Assembly: GCA_013214025.1 (NCBI GenBank)
Contig: JABSRN010000041.1
Coordinates: 1-64,000 of the forward strand
DNA: 64,000 bases
Direction: 5' to 3'
DNA from: Polyangiaceae bacterium
GTDB taxonomy: Bacteria; Myxococcota_A; Polyangia; Polyangiales; Polyangiaceae
This document shows positions 2,666 through 18,594 of this stretch, one piece after another; within the stretch, counting starts at the first letter, position 1; each line of letters opens with the position of its first letter. Both the position numbers and the translations under genes were made by a program. Under the pieces are notes generated by a model. The model did no database searches. It was not told the DNA's origin and was given only the letters and a program-made list of their open reading frames with translations.

Positions 2666-4336
2666 TCAGATGCCGCTTTCCCCCAGCTCATCGTGAAATA
2701 GCCGTACCAGGAACTGAGAGTGGAGCCGATTGATGCTGACGGCCGAGCCGGAAAGTGCCCGCAGCAACGCGGGGCGAGCGCCTAGGTTGTGCAGACTGGA
2801 GTCATTGAGATAGCGCAATCTCGGCGCCAGTCGGGTCGGGTCGGGCGCGCGAGGCTGCGTACGACCCGCTAGCGCGAGATTCCAGCGACCGAAGCCGGCG
2901 CACGGGACCGATAGAACGCGAGTCCTGAGTCCGACGGACTCAACCGTTCGTAGCACTGAGGCAAAGCTGTCGGGCGACGACACTTCTGAGGTGAGGGGCA
3001 ACACGGCGATGCCCTCTGGGGTCAGACGCTGCGCGATCAGCTCGTAAAATCGCCGTGTGTAGTTTTTTCCCGCCCGAAAATCGATCGGCGATCGAGTGTC
3101 GACGAAGATGAGGTCGAAGCGATCGCTGGGGTCGTGCTCGCTGAGCCAGACTATCGGCTCGTCTTCCTCAATCGTGTGGGGGCGCTGCCGTCCGGGAGTG
3201 CGGGGGGGGTGTAATTTGTTGGCGAGTTGCGCGAGGGCTCGATCATCGATCACAGCTCGCCAAGAACGAACGTCATCGTAGCGGTCGATTTCGCGGGTGA
3301 GTCCCAAGTGCGCGCCTCCGAGAATGAGCGCTCGTGCGCCGGGATTTCGCAAGGTCATCGCCGGGTGCACCATGCCTTCCATGAGTCGGGCGCTATCGGT
3401 GGCGGAGAAATGCAATTGGTCGTCTTGGTAGAGTTCGAGGCCGAAAGGGCCGGACGTGACCACCATGGAACTCTGCGAGCTGCGCTGCTGGTAAACGATC
3501 TGGCTGGGATAACGGAGAACTTGTTCGAGGGGCACCAAGAGCTCGCTCGTCATCAACGCGCCTAAGGACAGCGCGACGATTGAGCGCGATCCCCACCGCC
3601 AGCGTCGGCTCGGAGCCTGTCGGTGAAGGCGGGGTAGAGCGACGGCCAGCACATCGCAGCTCAGGGCTAGACATAGTGCGCAGCCGCCGAGGGCCCGCAG
3701 TTGCCCGATGCGCCATGCGGTGAAGCCAATGCCAAGAGCACCGAGGTAGAGTGCAGAGAGTCGCCAGGGGTTGGCCAAGTTGGCGAACAGCCCCAGATTG
3801 CGGCTCAGCCGTCCCAGGCTGACAACCACCCCAGTGCCGCTAAAGGCGAGCAAACTGAGCACAGCGACGGAACACAGCCCGACGACCGCCCCACTGTGCG
3901 CGTGGAGAAAGGAGACTTGAGCGATGGGGCCGAAGAGCATCAGGCTCAGGGTGCTCAGCACGACGCTGTTGAGGATCCAGCTCAGGGAACTCATCGGATC
4001 CGAATGAGTGACGCGAAAGGCACAGACACTGGCTAAGAGCGCTGAGCCTCCTGCGCCGAGCCGCCAGAGATCGGCCGAATGCTCACCCAAGGGGCCCAGG
4101 TAGAGAGACAGCCCGCGGGCGACAAACAAACTTCCCCAAAGGGAGCCAGACAAAAATAGCAGCCAAAACAACGCTAGGGAAAGCACCGCCTCGGCCTGGT
4201 GGCTTCGGGGGCGCGGCGGCTGAGAGCTTCGGTCAGGCGTCGCCGCGGACCGGGAGACGGAGGAGCGGGCGATGGAGGAATGGAGCGCGCTATCGCCGTC
4301 TGTGGGATCCTCTGGCTGCTTGGATGTGGGCGTCAC
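2666..4336 (-). CDS. Membrane-embedded polyamine aminopropyltransferase (spermidine synthase)-like protein
   Basis: About 556 residues from a GTG that overlaps the DUF4178 stop by 4 bases (GTGA). Residues about 50-270 hold roughly seven to eight membrane helices; residues about 300-540 form a Rossmann methyltransferase-like domain of the spermidine synthase family (SGPFGLELYQDDQLHFSATD, then LMEGMVHPAM). Functional spermidine synthases have GGGDG for binding decarboxylated SAM; here the loop reads ILGGAHLGL, and the later aspartate pair is also altered, so activity with the usual substrate is doubtful. Spermidine synthase homologues are known to sit beside DUF4178 genes, as here. I infer a membrane-associated role linked to polyamines or another SAM-derived ligand. 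Confidence 0.75.
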   Translation of the reverse strand: MTPTSKQPEDPTDGDSALHSSIARSSVSRSAATPDRSSQPPRPRSHQAEAVLSLALFWLLFLSGSLWGSLFVARGLSLYLGPLGEHSADLWRLGAGGSALLASVCAFRVTHSDPMSSLSWILNSVVLSTLSLMLFGPIAQVSFLHAHSGAVVGLCSVAVLSLLAFSGTGVVVSLGRLSRNLGLFANLANPWRLSALYLGALGIGFTAWRIGQLRALGGCALCLALSCDVLAVALPRLHRQAPSRRWRWGSRSIVALSLGALMTSELLVPLEQVLRYPSQIVYQQRSSQSSMVVTSGPFGLELYQDDQLHFSATDSARLMEGMVHPAMTLRNPGARALILGGAHLGLTREIDRYDDVRSWRAVIDDRALAQLANKLHPPRTPGRQRPHTIEEDEPIVWLSEHDPSDRFDLIFVDTRSPIDFRAGKNYTRRFYELIAQRLTPEGIAVLPLTSEVSSPDSFASVLRTVESVGLRTRVLSVPCAGFGRWNLALAGRTQPRAPDPTRLAPRLRYLNDSSLHNLGARPALLRALSGSAVSINRLHSQFLVRLFHDELGESGI

Positions 4337-5790
4337 TTGCCGCCGTAGTAGCCGCCCCCGAAGTAGACGCCGGAGCTGCGATATCCACAGCCGCCGCAGC
4401 TGTTGCAGCAGACGAGGAGGAGCACGAGAATGATGATGAGCACGACGACCTGGCTGACCAGTTCGCCATCCTCGCCCTCGTTCCAACCCGTTCCTGCTGC
4501 TTGGATGAACTCTCCGCCCGGGCCGTCGACGTCGAGTTGGAATCCCTCAGCCACAACAGCCCACGGGACGTTGGCGGAATAGCTCCACCGCACCTCTCCG
4601 CCACCGGCCTCGCGCGACAAGGTTTCCACGCCCTTCTGGAAATCGAGGACCTGGCTGCGATCTCCAATTGCCGCCTTCCAGTAGAGCTCCCCGAGCACAT
4701 ACTCGATGGTGGCGTCGGAGCGATTCCGAATCGGGTACTTTTTTCCGCTCCAGCCGGCGTGTTGCGGGAGCCCTTGCATGTCCACCTCGGCGAGGTTGAC
4801 GGGTAGGCTCCACACCCAGCTCTTTTCGTCTTTGACGAGCCAGCGGTAGCCGATGCCGGCACTGAAGAGCAGATACTCTTCCCAGCTGAAATGGTCACCG
4901 TCGTAGTCGCTGCCTCGGCGCATATAGGCGATGCAGATGTAGTTGACCCCATCGAAACTTCCGGTGGCTCCGATGGGAATGTCCGGCGTGGTCATCAACT
5001 TTTCTTGTTGAGCGACCACCTGTTGCAGGGTGATATCGCTGACCGCGCCGCAGTACGGGCAACCCAGTCGGGTGGCGCGGTCGCCGTTGAGCTTCGGCAC
5101 CTCACCACCGCAGTTGGGGCACTGAATGTGTTTGGTCTTGATGCGTTCGGTGCTGCGCGGGCCCGCTTGGGTTACCTGCAGCTCGGTTTCGGCGATGACC
5201 GAGCCGGCGAAGACTTCGTAGCCGCCGCCCTCCATGTCGCCGTAGTCCAGGGTCGCGTAGGCGTTATTGATACCGAAACAATCGGCGTAGTATCGGACTG
5301 CGCCCGGCGGGACCGCGGCGGGCAGTTCGCCTTCGGCTGAGACGATGGTTGCCTGCCGGACCTCGCTCACTCGGAAGGAGCCGAGTTCTCCCAGCGTGAT
5401 GTCTTGCTCGGGTGCCAGCGATCCGTAGGCAGGTACGGCGTGCCCCGGAGCCAGACTGGTGACGATCCACTGCCCTTCTGCGTAGGCGATCCAACCCCAG
5501 GTCGCTCCGTGATCGAAGGTGACGTAGTACTCGTCCCAGGGTCCGGCCCCGTGGTCCAGCTGGACGCGGCCCATGACGGTGAAGGCGCGCCCGGATAGCG
5601 TGCCGCTGTCGCCTACAGCGATCAGACTGGGGACGTTGGCGATCTCGGCGACCTTGCCGAGATTCTCCAGGCCGCGATCGCTTCGGCAGACGGTCGCCTG
5701 GCAGTACTCGCAGACTTTGGCGATGGACGAACCAACGCCAAATTCGATCGGCGCGCCGCAGCTTGGGCAGGTTCCGCTCGCTACTGCCAT
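4333..5790 (-). CDS. DUF4178 protein with zinc ribbons and a C-terminal membrane anchor
   Basis: 485 residues. It opens with a zinc ribbon (CPSCGAPIEFG, then CEYCQATVC), followed by a DUF4178 domain (GDSGTLSGRAFTVMGRVQLDHG, then WDEYYVTFDHGATWGWIAYAEG, residues about 58-120). A second zinc ribbon (CPNCGGEV, then CPYCGAVS) and a second DUF4178 repeat (IPIGATGSFDGVNYICIAYMRR, then FSWEEYLLFSAGIGYRWLV) follow. The C-terminus has one membrane helix (VVVLIIILVLLLVCC) and a Cys/Gly-rich tail. The biochemical function of DUF4178 is unknown; it is often found with spermidine synthase-like genes, and here it is translationally coupled to one by a GTGA overlap. No signal peptide is visible, so the large domain probably faces the cytoplasm. 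Confidence 0.85.
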   Translation of the reverse strand: MAVASGTCPSCGAPIEFGVGSSIAKVCEYCQATVCRSDRGLENLGKVAEIANVPSLIAVGDSGTLSGRAFTVMGRVQLDHGAGPWDEYYVTFDHGATWGWIAYAEGQWIVTSLAPGHAVPAYGSLAPEQDITLGELGSFRVSEVRQATIVSAEGELPAAVPPGAVRYYADCFGINNAYATLDYGDMEGGGYEVFAGSVIAETELQVTQAGPRSTERIKTKHIQCPNCGGEVPKLNGDRATRLGCPYCGAVSDITLQQVVAQQEKLMTTPDIPIGATGSFDGVNYICIAYMRRGSDYDGDHFSWEEYLLFSAGIGYRWLVKDEKSWVWSLPVNLAEVDMQGLPQHAGWSGKKYPIRNRSDATIEYVLGELYWKAAIGDRSQVLDFQKGVETLSREAGGGEVRWSYSANVPWAVVAEGFQLDVDGPGGEFIQAAGTGWNEGEDGELVSQVVVLIIILVLLLVCCNSCGGCGYRSSGVYFGGGYYGGK

Positions 5791-5948
5791 CCAGACCGAA
5801 TGTTACGACACTCCGCCGGACTTTTGTCCCTTCGTCGCCGCTTTTCGGAGCGGGGGGCGAAAACAGCCCCGGGTCCGATTCAATCGCGATATCGCAGGCA
5901 GCGGTGTTCTGGCTGCGCTGGCTGGGCCGCCGCCTCGCCGGCTTTCAG

Positions 5949-6956
5949 CTAGCGAGGATCTTGCTGGGCGGCTTCTTCCTTGAAAGCTTCGTCGACCAGC
6001 GTCCGTAGATCCCGGCGTTTCGCTTCATCGGCCGGATCGACCTTCGGCGTGCTGGTGCTGCCGGCACGGCTCGCCTCGAATTGTCGTCGCAGGGCGTCGT
6101 CATCGCCTCCCATAAGTGCCGCTTCGAAATCGGCGTCTTGGCTGCGTCGTTTGCCAAAGAGGCGCCCGAAAAAACCCTCGCTGGCGGTGAGCGGCAGGGG
6201 GCTTGCGGCGGCGGCGGCGGGATCCTTGCGGATTTGGTCTATGAGCTTCGTCGCGCGCCGCAGAATGCCGGAAGCTTCGCTGAGTAGTGCTCGTTGCGTG
6301 GGATCGAGATCCTTCTGAGCTCTGCGGACGGAATGTTCGCCCAATTCCGCGAAGAGCGCTGTAAGCACGGCCACCTCGCCCACGTTCAGCTTCGTCAGCT
6401 GAGCGACGTTCGGCCCGCCGCAGCTCTTGGAGTAGATGTACGAGCCCTGAAGGATGACGGGACCGAGTCCCAGACCCACAGCCGCGAGATCGATTTGGTC
6501 TTCGGGTTGAGTCGAGGCGCTCGCGGAGTCGTCGATCTCAAGCAGGAAGATGTGAGCTACCGCCCGAGCTAAACCCGTCGTGAGTCCGACGGGGTGATCG
6601 AGCTCGGATTCTGAGACGCGCAGGGCCCAGCCACTGACCGTGGGGCTCAGACGAGCTGTGCCCTCTTCGGGAGCCGCCGGGGCGCAGGCACCCGTGCCAC
6701 AACTTCCGCTGCTGTTGGCAGGCTCGGAGGATTCCACGAGTTCCACCTCGATGGGCACATCGGCGAGTCCAGCGTGCTCTTGCAGTCGTGTGACCAGACG
6801 TTTGGCGCTTTGGAGATCGGCATGGAACGGATCCGGGAAGAAATCGGCGTTAGGCAGAACGAAAGGCCGATCACCAATCTCTCCGTCCGCGTTCGCGAGA
6901 AAGAGGCAGTAGGCCTGAACCAGGCGTTGAATATGAGCTTCTGACGGCAGTTCCAT
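5949..6956 (-). CDS. Conserved-looking hypothetical protein, first gene of the DUF4178 operon
   Basis: 335 residues starting MELPSEAH. I do not recognise a named domain. There is no signal peptide or membrane helix. Features seen: a cysteine-containing insert (SSGSCGTGACAPAAPEEG, residues about 82-100), a helical middle, and a charged, disordered C-terminal 60 residues with FFGRLFGKRRSQDADFEAALMGG and a basic/acidic tail. It lies 158 bases upstream of the DUF4178 gene on the same strand, so a three-gene operon (this gene, DUF4178, aminopropyltransferase-like) is likely. It probably acts in the cytoplasm with the DUF4178 protein, which is inference from position only. Confidence 0.7.
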   Translation of the reverse strand: MELPSEAHIQRLVQAYCLFLANADGEIGDRPFVLPNADFFPDPFHADLQSAKRLVTRLQEHAGLADVPIEVELVESSEPANSSGSCGTGACAPAAPEEGTARLSPTVSGWALRVSESELDHPVGLTTGLARAVAHIFLLEIDDSASASTQPEDQIDLAAVGLGLGPVILQGSYIYSKSCGGPNVAQLTKLNVGEVAVLTALFAELGEHSVRRAQKDLDPTQRALLSEASGILRRATKLIDQIRKDPAAAAASPLPLTASEGFFGRLFGKRRSQDADFEAALMGGDDDALRRQFEASRAGSTSTPKVDPADEAKRRDLRTLVDEAFKEEAAQQDPR

Positions 6957-7195: not shown

Positions 7196-7525
7196 ATGGA
7201 ACGACGCATCAGCCCACGGGCAGCTACGGACATCGAAGTTACCCTCTATCAGCAGGGTCAGATCTCTCAGTGCCGCGGTATTGAGATTTCGACGACCGGC
7301 GCTGTGTTGGATGGCCCTCCCTGCCACCCCGATTTATCCGGTGGCACTCTGCGGATGGAATTGCGGATCCCCGGTCGTCGTCGTCCGGTGCGTGCGGTGG
7401 CGGTGCGGGTTCGTCAGAATGGACGCCGGCAGGCGGTGCGTTTTATGCAGCTGCGGGACGGCGATCACTTGTCACTGGCTCACCATATCTTAACTTCGCG
7501 CATCGCTCCCTTAGGCCGGGCGTGA
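7196..7525 (+). CDS. PilZ domain protein (candidate c-di-GMP receptor)
   Basis: 109 residues from ATG 7196, which has a GGAG ribosome site at 7187-7190; an earlier in-frame start at 7169 is less likely. It is a stand-alone PilZ beta barrel: ERRISPR at the N-terminus supplies the RxxxR c-di-GMP binding motif, and EISTTGAVL stands where [D/N]xSxxG is expected, with Glu in the first position, so binding may be weak. The stop overlaps the GTG of the next gene by 4 bases (7522-7525), an unusual coupling of a cytoplasmic second-messenger protein to a lipoprotein. A second PilZ protein is at 42594-42929. Confidence 0.85.
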   Translation: MERRISPRAATDIEVTLYQQGQISQCRGIEISTTGAVLDGPPCHPDLSGGTLRMELRIPGRRRPVRAVAVRVRQNGRRQAVRFMQLRDGDHLSLAHHILTSRIAPLGRA

Positions 7526-8238
7526 GTATCCGCCGTCGCTTCCGTTTTCGTGTCCCCAGTTTGTTCTTGTCGGCGTTGGTCCTCGCCTGCGGCGCGGACG
7601 TGACGGACGACCCCGGCCGTGGAATCCCAGGGGACGGCGGCGTGGACGGTAGTTCAAACAACGGCGGTACGTCTACGGGCGGTACATCGAGTGGTGGCAG
7701 CTCTGTGGGTGGAAGTTCCGCGGGCGGCACCGCTAGCGGCGGTGTCGGCAGTGCCGGCAGCGGGACCGAACCGGCAAGCAATTGCATCACGTCCTCAGAG
7801 TGTGCGATCCGCTCGATCAGTTGCTGTGGCAGTTGCGGCGCCCCCACGCGCGACGATGTGATCGCTATGCGCCGGGACGCGCTGTCCGACTACACCCCCG
7901 CTGATTGCGGCATGGGTTGTCCAGCTTGCGCTATGCTCGGCGACTCGACGTTGTTGGCTAGCTGCGACGACGGGATCTGCACGGTTCTCGATCTTCAGCT
8001 GCACCGCTCGACGGAATGCATGAGCAACACGGATTGTGCTGTCCGCACCCAGGCTTGTTGTCCCTGCGGATCTGGCACGGGCATGGGAGAGCTCGTGGCG
8101 ATCAGCGATTCGGCTGCCTATGAGGTCTTGGTTTGTGGCGGCTCAGTCGACTGCGACGATTGCGTACCCGAATACCCGTTGCAGGTGACGGCCGCCTGTG
8201 AATCAGGTCGCTGCGTACTGAACGACACCCGCTTCTAA
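7522..8238 (+). CDS. Cys-rich lipoprotein with Gly/Ser/Thr linker
   Basis: 238 residues from a GTG overlapping the PilZ stop (GTGA). The signal peptide RRRFRFRVPSLFLSALVLAC ends at a likely lipidated cysteine. A low-complexity stretch follows (GGTSTGGTSSGGSSVGG type, residues about 45-85), then two similar Cys-rich modules, each beginning with a C-x(3-4)-C pair (NCITSSECAIRSISCCGSCG and ECMSNTDCAVRTQACCPCGSG). The modules look like internal duplicates stabilised by disulfides. Such architecture is common in surface lipoproteins of myxobacteria. No enzyme motif is seen; a surface-binding role is inference. Confidence 0.8.
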   Translation: MSIRRRFRFRVPSLFLSALVLACGADVTDDPGRGIPGDGGVDGSSNNGGTSTGGTSSGGSSVGGSSAGGTASGGVGSAGSGTEPASNCITSSECAIRSISCCGSCGAPTRDDVIAMRRDALSDYTPADCGMGCPACAMLGDSTLLASCDDGICTVLDLQLHRSTECMSNTDCAVRTQACCPCGSGTGMGELVAISDSAAYEVLVCGGSVDCDDCVPEYPLQVTAACESGRCVLNDTRF

Positions 8239-9993: not shown

Positions 9994-10620
9994 ATGATTG
10001 TTGCTCGCTTTTCTGTCGCCCCATCCGCCGCCCTTATTGCCCTAGGCATTCTCGGGTTCACGGCCTGTGCCGAGGCTGCTGACCCTTACGAACAGCGCCG
10101 GGCTAACGAGTATGGGTCCACGGCGACTACAGGAGGCAGCGGCAGCGGCACAAATAATAGCGGCAGTGGCGATAGTGGCAGTGGCGGGACCACGAACGGG
10201 GGCTCCGACCCAGAGTGCCTGGTCGCGGATGACTGCGATGCGCCGGACGACCAGTTTGCGTGTTGCACGACAGCGGGAAGCTGCGGCGTCGAAATGGAGT
10301 CGGGGGATTGCGGTTCCTCGGAGACCATTGGCGGAGACTCCGGTGGCGGCAGTCTAGGCGGCGATCTGCCGGGCGTTTCGGGTGCGTCTACAGGTGGAAC
10401 CTCGGGCGGTACGGGTTCGTCCCCTGGTGCTTCGGGCGGCTCAGCTTCGGGCGGCTCAGCTTCCGGTGGCTCAGCTTCGCCTGCTGGTGGTTCGTCTGCT
10501 AGTGGTTCGTCTGCTGGTGGTTCGTCTGCTGGTGGTTCGTCGACCGGTGGGTCCGGTGGCAGTGGCGGAGACGATGGCGGCGGAATGCTCGGCGGAGTGC
10601 TCGGCGGCATGTTCTTCTAA
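9994..10620 (+). CDS. Gly/Ser-rich repeat lipoprotein
   Basis: 208 residues from ATG 9994. The signal peptide (MIVARFSVAPSAALIALGIL, then GFTAC) ends at a lipobox cysteine. A first Gly/Ser linker is followed by a small Cys-rich domain (ECLVADDCDAPDD, then FACCTTAGSCG) and then about 90 residues of GGSASGG- and GGSSAGG-type repeats, closing with GGGMLGGVLGGMFF. The DNA under the repeats consists of 15-base units (see the repeat entry), so copy number can change without shifting frame. Its design resembles the lipoprotein at 7522-8238. Surface exposure and adhesion are inference. Confidence 0.75.
   Translation: MIVARFSVAPSAALIALGILGFTACAEAADPYEQRRANEYGSTATTGGSGSGTNNSGSGDSGSGGTTNGGSDPECLVADDCDAPDDQFACCTTAGSCGVEMESGDCGSSETIGGDSGGGSLGGDLPGVSGASTGGTSGGTGSSPGASGGSASGGSASGGSASPAGGSSASGSSAGGSSAGGSSTGGSGGSGGDDGGGMLGGVLGGMFF
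10435..10545 (+). repeat. In-frame 15-bp tandem repeats inside the Gly/Ser lipoprotein gene
   Basis: Three near-identical copies of GGCGGCTCAGCTTCG (10435-10479) encode GGSAS. After 6 bases come four copies of GGTGGTTCGTCTGCT (10486-10545) encoding GGSSA-type pentapeptides; the copies differ by one to three bases. The unit length is a multiple of three, so slippage would change length only. Confidence 0.85.
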
Positions 10621-10671: not shown

Positions 10672-11070
10672 CTAGGGAACACGTGCGGCGGGTCTGGCTC
10701 GCTCCACCACCGCGATAATTTGTTGGACAGTGAGGACCCCGGCGAGGCTGTGGTGTCCCCCGGCGATTTCTTCAAATGCGTCGTCCGGAACGTTGATCTG
10801 CCAATGGCCCTCGAGGGCGCCAATGATCGCCGCAACCGAGTCGTCTGTGGCTGCGGGATGAATATCGGTCAGTGTGGCGTCTAGCGTCAGTGAGCTGGGC
10901 GATACCACTAGCTCTGCAGCCACCACGGCCCGCACGGAACTCTCGACGCTTGCTGGGACCGCGACGGTTGCCTGAGCCGTAGCCGTACCGGGTGCAGTCT
11001 GCTTGACGCGAGTTGTGTCCTGGCAGCCGACTAATACCCAAAGACAAGCCAGCCAGAGAATGTGAGCCAT
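10672..11070 (-). CDS. Lipoprotein with an acyl-carrier-protein-like domain
   Basis: 132 residues from ATG 11070. The N-terminus MAHILWLACLWVLVGC is a short signal peptide with a good lipobox (LVGC), although it has no basic residue near the start. After a Thr/Ala-rich linker comes a domain of about 80 residues that aligns with acyl carrier proteins along its whole length: VRAVVAAELVVSPSSLTLDA, then ATDDSVAAIIGALEGHW, INVPDDAFEEI and TVQQIIAVVE. The serine that carries phosphopantetheine in ACPs (DSL) is present as DSV. If exported, the domain would be out of reach of the cytoplasmic transferase, so either it is unmodified or the protein stays inside. The fold call is inference. Confidence 0.65.
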   Translation of the reverse strand: MAHILWLACLWVLVGCQDTTRVKQTAPGTATAQATVAVPASVESSVRAVVAAELVVSPSSLTLDATLTDIHPAATDDSVAAIIGALEGHWQINVPDDAFEEIAGGHHSLAGVLTVQQIIAVVERARPAARVP

Positions 11071-11209
11071 CTGGGCTAGGATAAACCCATCCCAGCAGCA
11101 GGCCAAGCGGATCGAGTTGGGATCACGCTCAAACGGCTTATTGTGGTAGACGCTTGTTGATAGCAAGGCCATCCACCGCGTACTAGACCGCGAGGGAAAG
11201 GCGATCGCT

Positions 11210-12055
11210 ATGATGGTTTCGACGAGGGCTTCGATCTGGAAAATGATCAGATGGCAGTGGCGCTATGCGCTGGTCATGGCGGTCGCTGGCACCGCTGCGG
11301 TGATGATGGAACGTCACTATCACTTCGAACGAAACGTACTGCCTAATTTGCCATTGGCCGTCGTCGGTGGCGCACTGAGCATCTTCGTCAGCTTCCGCGC
11401 GAACTCCGCCTACGACCGTTGGTGGGAAGGGCGCAAGTTGTGGGGCGGCATGGTCAACGTGTGTAGGCATTTCTCTACGCAGGTGATGCAGTACATCGGG
11501 GCGAATCCCGAACACCGCGATTCCGCCGAAACATTGCTGCGTCGGCAAGTCGCCTACGTTCACACGTTGCGGTGCTTGCTCAGGGAGGACGACCCCTTGA
11601 AGGATCCCTCGGTCAAAAATTTCTTGGCAGCGGAAGAGCTCGAAGGCTTGCGTGGTGAAAGCAACATCACTCACGCACTGCTCGATGCGCAGTTTCGAGA
11701 GGTGCGTGAGCTCAGTGATGCTGGGATCATTTCCGAATTCCGCATGGCGAGCCTGGATTCAAGCTTGCAAGAAATGCTCAACCACCAGGGCGGCTGCGAA
11801 CGCATCAAGAAAACGCCAATGCCTATGCTGTACGGTTTTCTTGCGCACCGGCTGGTCATTGCCTTCTCGATCTTGTTCCCCTTTGCCGTCGTTCATGAGT
11901 TGAGCTGGGCGGTGGTGCCGCTCACCGTCTTGGTCGGTCTCGCCTTTGCCTTGATCAGCGAGGCCGGTCGGGTCTTGGAGGACCCGTTCACCCATTTCTA
12001 TAATGGTTTTGCGCTCTCGGCGCTCTCGACCACCATCGAGATAAACATTCGGTAG
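11210..12055 (+). CDS. Bestrophin-family (UPF0187/YneE) membrane channel
   Basis: 281 residues. The signature near the N-terminus is clear: ERNVLPNLPLAVVGGALSIF, then VSFRANSAYDRWWEGRKLWGG, with paired hydrophobic helices at about residues 20-65 and again at about 205-250 (LVIAFSILFPFAVVHEL and VVPLTVLVGLAFALI). Bacterial bestrophins form pentameric anion or cation channels in the inner membrane. The C-terminal EDPFTHFYNGFALSAL motif is also typical. Length is normal. It is divergent from the ACP-like lipoprotein. Two ATGs stand in tandem at 11210 and 11213; either may be used. Confidence 0.9.
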   Translation: MMVSTRASIWKMIRWQWRYALVMAVAGTAAVMMERHYHFERNVLPNLPLAVVGGALSIFVSFRANSAYDRWWEGRKLWGGMVNVCRHFSTQVMQYIGANPEHRDSAETLLRRQVAYVHTLRCLLREDDPLKDPSVKNFLAAEELEGLRGESNITHALLDAQFREVRELSDAGIISEFRMASLDSSLQEMLNHQGGCERIKKTPMPMLYGFLAHRLVIAFSILFPFAVVHELSWAVVPLTVLVGLAFALISEAGRVLEDPFTHFYNGFALSALSTTIEINIR

Positions 12056-16620: not shown

Positions 16621-18594
16621 ACAGATTCTTTTTCGACCTACAGCGACCTCAAAATTGGCGGCAAAACCCTCGGCTACTACAGGCTGGAGAAGTTCGCGAA
16701 ATCTTCCGGGGTGGACGTTTCGCGGCTACCTTTCTCGCTCAAGATCTTGTTGGAGAACTTGCTGCGCTGTGACGATGGCAAGTTCGTCGAGTTCTACGGC
16801 GAAGGCGTTGCTGCTCTCACTCTCGTGGGTCGCGCGACTATCGCTAATATGGCGCCCGAGTTCGGCTCCACCTGCGGCATCTTCCCCATTGACGAGGAGA
16901 CCGTGAACTTCCAGCGCTTCAGCGGGCGCAGCGACGAGACTGCCGATCTCGTAGAGGCCTACGCCAAGGCTCAGGGCATGTTCCTCACGCCGGACAGCCC
17001 TGAGCCCCTCTTCAGCGACACCATCGCTCTCGACATCGGTACCGTGGTGCCCAGCTTGGCCGGTCCGAAGCGGCCCCAGGGCAACGTGGCTCTCAGCGAT
17101 ATGAAGAACGCCTGGAGCGCCACTCGGGATAGCTTGCTCGAGCAAAACAAGATCCCGGCGTCGGACAAGACCAAGACAGTCAGCACCACCTTCAAGGGTG
17201 AGACCCTTGAGCTCGGCCACGGTGACGTCGTGATCGCAGCGATCACTTCCTGCACCAACACCAGCAACCCGTCGGTCATGCTCGGTGCGGGCCTGCTGGC
17301 TTACAAGGCAGCCGCGGCGGGTCTCCAGGTGAAGCCCTGGGTCAAGACCAGCCTAGTCCACCGTGGTGACCGAATACCTGCGGGAGTCCGGCACGCTCTC
17401 GTCCCTAGAGGCGCTCAACTTCCACGTGGTGGGTTATGGCTGCACGACCTGTATCGGCACCAGCGGTCCGCTGCCTCCCCCAGTTAGTGAATCCATCAAT
17501 AGCGGCAATCTCGTGGCGTGCTCGGTGCTCAGCGGCAACCGCAACTTCGAGGGTCGCATCAGCCCTGACATCCGCGCGAACTACCTGGCCAGTCCGCCGT
17601 TGGTGGTAGCTTACGCTATCGCCGGTCGCGTCGACTTCGAAGCCGAAGCACTGGACAAAGGCAAAGACGTCTTCCTCAAGGACATCTGGCCCTCCCCAGA
17701 AGAGATCAGTGAGATCATGGCCAAGTCCCTCTCCGCAGAGATGTACCGCAAGCAGTACGAGAATACCTTCGTGGGCGACAAGGCCTGCGGGGGCTCGATA
17801 TTCCCAAGGGCAAGAGCTTTGGCTGGGGCGAGCACAGCACCTACATTCGTCAACCCAGCTTCTTCAAGAACATGCCGGAAGAGCCGGGTCCCATGTCGGA
17901 CATCTCCGGCGCGCGGGTACTCGCGAAGCTCGGCAATTCGGTCACGACGGATCACATCTCGCCAGCCGGCGCGATGGCTCTGGACTCTCCCACTGGTGTG
18001 TACCTCAAGGACCACGGCGTCGAGCGTAAGAACTTTAACTCCGACGGCTCCCGTCGCGGTAACCACGAAGTGATGGTGCGAGCCACCTTCGCCAACGTGC
18101 GCCTTCGTAACCAAATCGCCCCTGGCACCGAAGGCGGCGTGACTCGTCACCTCCCGGGTGGCGATGCCATGAGCATTTACGATGCCTCCGCCAAGTACCA
18201 GGCCGATAGCGTGCCGTTGATGGTGCTAGCGGGCAAGGAGTACCGCTCCGGTTCGTCCCGTGACTGGGCGGCCAAGGGCACATTCATGCTTGGCATCAAA
18301 GCGGTCTTGCCCGAGTCCTTCGAGCGTATTCACCGCAGCAACCTCATCGGCATGGGCGTCATGCCGTTGGAATACGCGGGCGGCGCCACCGCGGAGTCCC
18401 TGGGTCTCACCGGCGAAGAAGTATTCAACTTTAGCGGCATCGCCAGCGACATGAAGCCGGGCAAAGAGTTCACGGTGACCGCGACGGACAAGGCCGGCAA
18501 GAAGCAAGAGTTCACCGTCAAGTCTCGCATCGATACATTGGTGGAGCTCGACTACTACCGACATGGCGGCATCTTGCAGTACGTATTACGTTAG
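16621..18594 (+). pseudogene. acnA: Aconitate hydratase A pseudogene with internal deletion and frameshifts
   Basis: AcnA (about 890-900 residues) interconverts citrate and isocitrate in the TCA cycle using a [4Fe-4S] cluster. Here the reading begins [16 protein letters not shown] but the codon before it is TCC, so the start codon is lost. After [14 protein letters not shown] the next residues are [10 protein letters not shown], which in AcnA lie about 235 residues further on, so about 700 bases are missing. At about 17354 eight bases are missing (KTSL then STVVTEYL) and the frame changes; at about 17790 one base is missing (GDKA then RGLDIPKG). The last frame runs through STYIRQPSFF and RRGNHEVM to YYRHGGILQYVLR. 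Cluster cysteines ([17 protein letters not shown]) survive but lie in two frames. Confidence 0.9.

Follow-up and report, generated by a model that had tools for sequence, protein, structure and literature searches.

Acyl carrier proteins (ACPs) are cytoplasmic or organellar carriers whose function hangs on one serine, which takes phosphopantetheine and lies in the motif D-S-L-D at the head of helix II. Coenzyme A and phosphopantetheinyl transferase are cytoplasmic as well. The core of an ACP can hold an acyl chain, the chain being tethered by the arm, and ordinary ACP also binds divalent cations near the head of helix II. An ACP can nevertheless be tied to protein export: IacP, an ACP linked to a type 3 secretion system, is reported to serve translocon acylation (PMC5279801). 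For an exported ACP-like lipoprotein we found no description in the titles and opening lines of abstracts searched, a body of literature in which subscription journals are mostly outside coverage.

The locus described here lies in a window of 64,000 nucleotides, the whole stretch of DNA analysed, from a Polyangiaceae bacterium. An open reading frame of 132 codons plus stop encodes an ACP-like lipoprotein, P0001 (Table 1). The gene is real, with codon-position G+C of 0.71/0.50/0.64 and similar values in its neighbours (0.73/0.46/0.67 in a hydrolase gene and 0.72/0.49/0.67 in the gene at 5949-6956). An alternative in-frame ATG is found upstream at 11172, and the N-terminus read from there is longer and charged. 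A frame error as the source of the odd helix II of P0001 was rejected on a by-eye check of the DNA sequence.

Table 1. Features of the P0001 gene, in window coordinates.
Feature	Position	Strand	Basis
Coding sequence, ACP-like lipoprotein P0001, 132 residues	10672..11070, stop included	-	Frame, translation, codon-position G+C
Putative lipoprotein signal peptide, lipobox LVGC	11023..11070	-	Translation; Cys16 at 11023-11025; Gln at +2
Ala/Thr/Pro-rich linker, residues 17-37	10960..11022	-	Low model confidence there
ACP-like domain, residues 38-126	10693..10959	-	Profile, phmmer, fold matches, shuffle control
Helix II, residues 76-90, ACP recognition helix	10801..10845	-	AlphaFold2 model
Asp76, at the phosphopantetheine-serine position	10843..10845	-	Family alignments, ungapped helix II register, model
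Thr75, on the site in alignments to ACPs	10846-10848	-	Solved-ACP and ACP-profile alignments
Ser78, the serine of the preliminary description, two residues beyond the site	10837..10839	-	BLAST, profile and nine-member alignments
Lengthened helix III-IV loop, residues 104-114	10729..10761	-	Nine-member alignment, family feature

A preliminary description of this DNA had claimed a signal peptide and lipobox (VLVGC), and both are present: read by eye, the N-terminus, M-A-H-I-L-W-L-A-C-L-W-V-L-V-G-C, is hydrophobic and closes with the lipobox L-V-G-C at residues 13-16. The signal peptide is short (15 residues) and contains no Lys or Arg, so that it lacks the positively charged n-region of bacterial lipoproteins. 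The search for homologues with the same lipobox that had been suggested at the outset yields eight other lipoproteins, and a lipobox-type motif stands near the N-terminus in all nine members of the resulting alignment. We infer from these features that P0001 is probably exported and lipidated. The earlier placement of the domain outside the cytoplasm therefore stands in part, being strengthened by motifs common to all nine members and weakened by the short, uncharged signal peptide, with the location read from sequence motifs alone.

The claimed similarity to ACP is borne out beyond chance. As a reference we used a profile of 45 distinct ordinary ACP segments, which were picked by their D-S-L motif among the fetched loci and are not a random sample. 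Against this profile the P0001 domain scores 27.2 bits, compared with -0.5 for the reversed domain and a maximum of 10.7 over 1000 shuffles (974 with a reported score). NCBIfam ACP models match P0001 at E 1.3e-4 and 1.4e-4, but far below their curated cut-offs, and a phmmer search of solved structures with P0001 returns ACPs from E 0.014; a Pfam search of P0001 gives no family at E <= 1. Among the relatives, PF00550 is above its cut-off in all five first scanned and also in L190, and none of those five reaches the NCBIfam ACP cut-off. Taken together, the searches and controls confirm that the ACP likeness of P0001 exceeds chance.

The structure prediction and comparison with ACP proposed at the outset gives the same answer. 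An AlphaFold2 model of P0001 was computed from a five-row alignment of the lipoprotein family in which no ordinary ACP was included. Its helices span residues 40-54, 67-70, 76-90, 97-103 and 115-125, with mean pLDDT above 85 in most ten-residue blocks of the domain, a whole-chain mean of 76.7 and a pTM of 0.62. In a Foldseek search with this model, ACPs, alone or within complexes, occur across the top 50 matches listed (E 1.1e-3 at best, with target-normalised TM near 0.8 for most). The 50 matches listed by VIA-align are solved ACPs at Z 10.0-12.1 and rmsd 1.4-3.3, a range in which the sequence evidence for ACP likeness matters, since Z below about 13 can be common among helical bundles. Colicin immunity proteins, which we take to belong to the same SCOP fold class as ACP and which are still a possible alternative, are absent among the fold matches listed. 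The domain of P0001 is thus a predicted four-helix ACP fold.

The family comprises nine lipoproteins of the same build (P0001, P0002, P0003, L092, L093, L107, L190, L191 and L192). P0002, from Minicystis rosea (G144, CP016211.1), was found with P0001 as query, and P0003, from another Myxococcota genome (G319), in a search of 377 genomes. With P0002 and P0003 as queries, 4 of the 23 loci listed have the lipoprotein build, namely Minicystis again, two Verrucomicrobium strains (L092, sp. BvORR034; L093, sp. BvORR106) and a Lentisphaerae genome (L107); L190, L191 and L192 joined them when the order of Verrucomicrobium was searched afterwards. In the family, helices III and IV are connected by a longer loop than in ordinary ACPs, by 10-12 residues when counted by hand on the alignment, and L-T-V or something similar comes after it; L192 has the long loop too, but its sequence ends shortly afterwards. 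Of all members P0001 has diverged furthest, and the L-D-x-V-E portion of the motif is gone from it. The domain carries a net charge of -9 in P0001, -2 in P0002, -15 in P0003, -6 in L093 and -9 in L107, set against an average of -15 for ordinary ACPs. Ordinary serine (D-S-L) ACPs coexist with the lipoprotein in the four genomes checked (the window genome, the Verrucomicrobium genomes G489 and G490, and the Lentisphaerae genome G491), which makes the lipoprotein an addition to them.

In five members (L092, L093, L107, L190 and L191) the ACP-like domain is followed by a conserved C-terminal extension, roughly 100 residues long (5199-5606(+) in L093), with the consensus DGTLRxAQVGxYxxLSKxPNPxGYxLVFVP. 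This extension gives no Pfam family in L092, L093, L107 or L190 at the thresholds used. When that of L093 was modelled, the 50 fold matches listed were ACPs only, none of which accounts for the extension. It occurs in 2 of 337 sampled genomes of the Verrucomicrobium phylum.

Closer examination of helix II shows how the family departs from ordinary ACPs at the modification site. BLAST pairs A-T-D-D-S-V of P0001 gap-free with A-D-D-L-D-V of the Minicystis relative. In the nine-member alignment the column of Asp76 is Asp in every member, and that of Ser78 is Asp in the other eight and Ser in P0001 only; eight of the nine thus read D-D-L-D where ordinary ACPs read D-S-L-D. Alignments of P0001 to solved ACPs or to the ACP profile run one position out of this register, so that Thr75 falls on the site. 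The register of L093 is unambiguous (G-A-D-D-L-D-V-V-E against the ordinary G-A-D-S-L-D-V-V-E), and in the models helix II starts at this site Asp in L093 (its residue 76) and at Asp76 in P0001, from which we conclude that the modification serine has been lost in P0001, most likely to Asp.

These alignments overturn the earlier reading that P0001 keeps the phosphopantetheine serine (DDSV). The site is Asp76 or Thr75 and, in BLAST, family, solved-ACP and ACP-profile alignments alike, never Ser78; in the Asp76 register Ser78 stands where D-S-L-D has its second Asp. Nor is the named serine conserved among homologues, being Asp in eight relatives and Ser in the window copy only. The suggestion that the protein is modified before export fares no better: with Asp at the site in 9/9 members, phosphopantetheinylation of P0001 ahead of export appears unlikely.

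A single origin of the lipoprotein family is likely, judging from profiles and a tree. In a leave-one-out test, members were dropped in turn (the two Verrucomicrobium sequences together, with L190-L192 outside the test), and the profile of the remaining family outscored the 45-ACP profile for every member left out. P0001 scores 35.5 on the family profile, 26.3 on the 45-ACP profile and at most 31.4 on size-matched ACP profiles. Ordinary ACPs reach 67.4 on the same family profile, so the score alone does not separate the lipoproteins from ordinary ACPs. A tree built from six members along with 34 ordinary ACPs, before L190-L192 were found, sets the six apart by one branch (support 94/83; present in 92% of 200 bootstrap trees), but the branch to P0001 is about 10 changes per column long and the program warns of long-branch joins.

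The family is sparse, and occurs in Myxococcota and in Verrucomicrobiota/Lentisphaerae; all genome counts given here come from first-look searches and are lower bounds. Within the order of the window, the P0001 search finds at least two carriers among 183 genomes, the window genome and Minicystis. An initial peptide-pattern scan of genome contigs with P0001 gave no match, P0001 being too diverged for such scans, and what P0001 searches in 59, 183 and 377 genomes brought up was for the most part ordinary ACPs, chance frames and signal peptides of lipoproteins. Among the 30 loci listed from the 377 genomes, the family is represented only by L086 and the window's own copy, in a search that scored at most 11 candidates per genome and may have missed relatives. 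One candidate, L007, was rejected as a different lipoprotein with only the signal peptide in common.

A coding pattern for A-D-D-L-D-x-V-E, which the window's own copy is unable to match, occurs at 35 places in 34 of the 377 Myxococcota genomes, and its reversed control in 3 genomes. Of these 35 places (30 read, and L180-L184 scanned with the family profile), G319 is the only member. In its order, 5 of 79 genomes have a match, and G319 is again the sole member. In the order of Verrucomicrobium, 11 of 189 sampled genomes have a match at E <= 1e-10, five of them with members (G489, G490, G858, G891 and G864); the other matches are ordinary ACP domains that keep the serine.

ACP-like domains were also seen in other settings. 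Two viral contigs of about 230 kb (L201 at 4920-6113(+), and L202 similarly) encode a relative of the phage lysis inhibitor RIIB (phrog_609, E 8.7e-104, residues 59-397) whose N-terminus holds an ACP-like domain (PF00550 just above cut-off, residues 19-79), with D-D-L-D for D-S-L-D, followed by a helix-turn-helix. At L195 (1528-2541(-), genome G797), a protein combines apparent N-terminal transmembrane segments and a middle region with a C-terminal ACP domain bearing D-S-L (PF00550, E 4e-13, residues 264-329).

The surroundings of the P0001 gene name no partner. A bestrophin gene (11210-12055, PF25539) lies in divergent orientation to it and a Gly/Ser-rich lipoprotein-like frame at 9994-10620 in convergent orientation, with no promoter or terminator pattern found around the P0001 gene and no lipid gene adjoining it. 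Bestrophin was rejected as a linked partner, relatives at 50-51% identity (L011, L012) having no such lipoprotein beside them. Across P0002, P0003, L092, L093 and L107 we found no common gene neighbourhood naming a partner, only the two Verrucomicrobium loci being alike, and a search of a defence library gave no useful match.

Other features of the contig were recorded alongside. The frame at 9994-10620(+) and a second at 7522-8238(+), both lipoprotein-like with long Gly/Ser-rich low-complexity stretches and no Pfam family, flank the hydrolase gene. A DUF4178 protein (4333-5790(-); PF13785, E 1.3e-28) has CxxC pairs and a Cys/Gly-rich C-terminal tail. About 6 kb from the P0001 gene, an aconitase gene (16711-18594(+)) is apparently broken: after the first 22 residues the match resumes only once some 220 have been skipped, and at least three overlapping frames are needed to cover the remainder. 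It is either a pseudogene or an assembly error, so sequence errors in the contig are possible, and the frame of P0001 itself is intact.

On balance we favour, by a modest degree, the reading that P0001 is a lipoprotein with an exported ACP domain that lacks the phosphopantetheine serine (Asp instead), belongs to a sparse family and acts as a tethered non-covalent binding module. What survives of the initial suggestions is thus the dead ACP, recast from an anchor protein to a tethered module with Asp at the site throughout the family. Extending this to all members, as a family of lipid-anchored exported ACP folds in at least two phyla, with serine changed to Asp in every member found and a docking or lipid-handling role in the periplasm or at the surface, is a more tentative proposal.

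The serious rival for the window copy, and less so for the family, is decay. The gene would then be a lineage-specific relic without present function, as might be read from its very long branch in the tree, the absence from it of residues conserved in the other eight members, its weak signal peptide, and the first-look finding of a copy only in Minicystis among the other genomes of the order. An unbroken frame whose codon-position G+C matches that of the genes around it, the retained lipobox and Asp76, and a hydrophobic core sound enough to be modelled with confidence argue the other way, and we regard decay as unlikely, if deserving real weight.

Less probable still is that, as a form of the lipid binding suggested at the outset, a free lipid is held in the four-helix core and shuttled or sensed between membranes without a covalent arm. 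The capacity of ACP cores for acyl chains and the probable membrane anchor of P0001 fit such a role; in ACP, however, the chain is tethered by the arm, and no lipid gene stands next to P0001. We give little credence to a divalent-cation site formed by the acidic residues of D-D-L-D where helix II begins, which would make the domain a structural or sensing module dependent on calcium or magnesium. In 8/9 members there are three Asp in four residues there, and ordinary ACP binds such cations nearby, but P0001 has two and has lost acidic positions at this very place. A working exported carrier, phosphopantetheinylated on Ser78 or Thr75 in the cytoplasm and exported as a holo domain that carries acyl groups beyond it, is the least probable of all: the predicted ACP fold, a Ser near the site and Thr75 on it in alignments to ACPs are outweighed by Asp in place of Ser78 in eight relatives, Asp at the site in 9/9 and the cytoplasmic location of coenzyme A and the transferase.

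For the tethered binding module, the following course of events may be envisaged. The precursor would cross the inner membrane unmodified by Sec, and Cys16 would be lipidated. The flexible linker would then hold the ACP fold off the surface of a membrane, perhaps the outer membrane because of the Gln at +2. With Asp in place of Ser, the precursor would escape loading by the cytoplasmic phosphopantetheinyl transferase ahead of export, and our guess is that removal of the transferase target explains why all members found show the change. The phosphopantetheine arm is presumably absent. The mostly acidic four-helix surface, which in most members is less acidic than that of ordinary ACP, would suit docking of a basic partner, and a partner might dock non-covalently through the acidic face of helix II, a role at which we can only guess.

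If this reading is true, the ACP fold persists in cofactor-free form in a compartment where both coenzyme A and the transferase are lacking, the central acyl carrier of the cell has been repurposed outside the cytoplasm, and the family offers a clean test of what ACP surfaces do alone. The family also carries a warning for annotation, in that Pfam labels its better-conserved members 'phosphopantetheine attachment site' despite their lipobox and the absence of an attachment serine.

Among known systems, the family has in common with AcpP (PF00550, NF002148, TIGR00517) the sequence profile, the four-helix fold, the acidic character and the register of helix II; it differs in its lipoprotein signal and linker, in Asp for the serine and in the lengthened III-IV loop. 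The NFS1-ISD11 complexes and the chloroplast Ycf2-FtsHi motor reportedly employ ACP as a subunit of a complex and not as a carrier for fatty-acid synthase, which is like the role proposed here, although those ACPs are in an organellar interior or the cytoplasm and have no lipobox, unlike P0001. IacP resembles P0001 as an ACP reportedly tied to proteins that leave the cell; in P0001, by contrast, the ACP fold itself bears the export signal and has no serine (PMC5279801).
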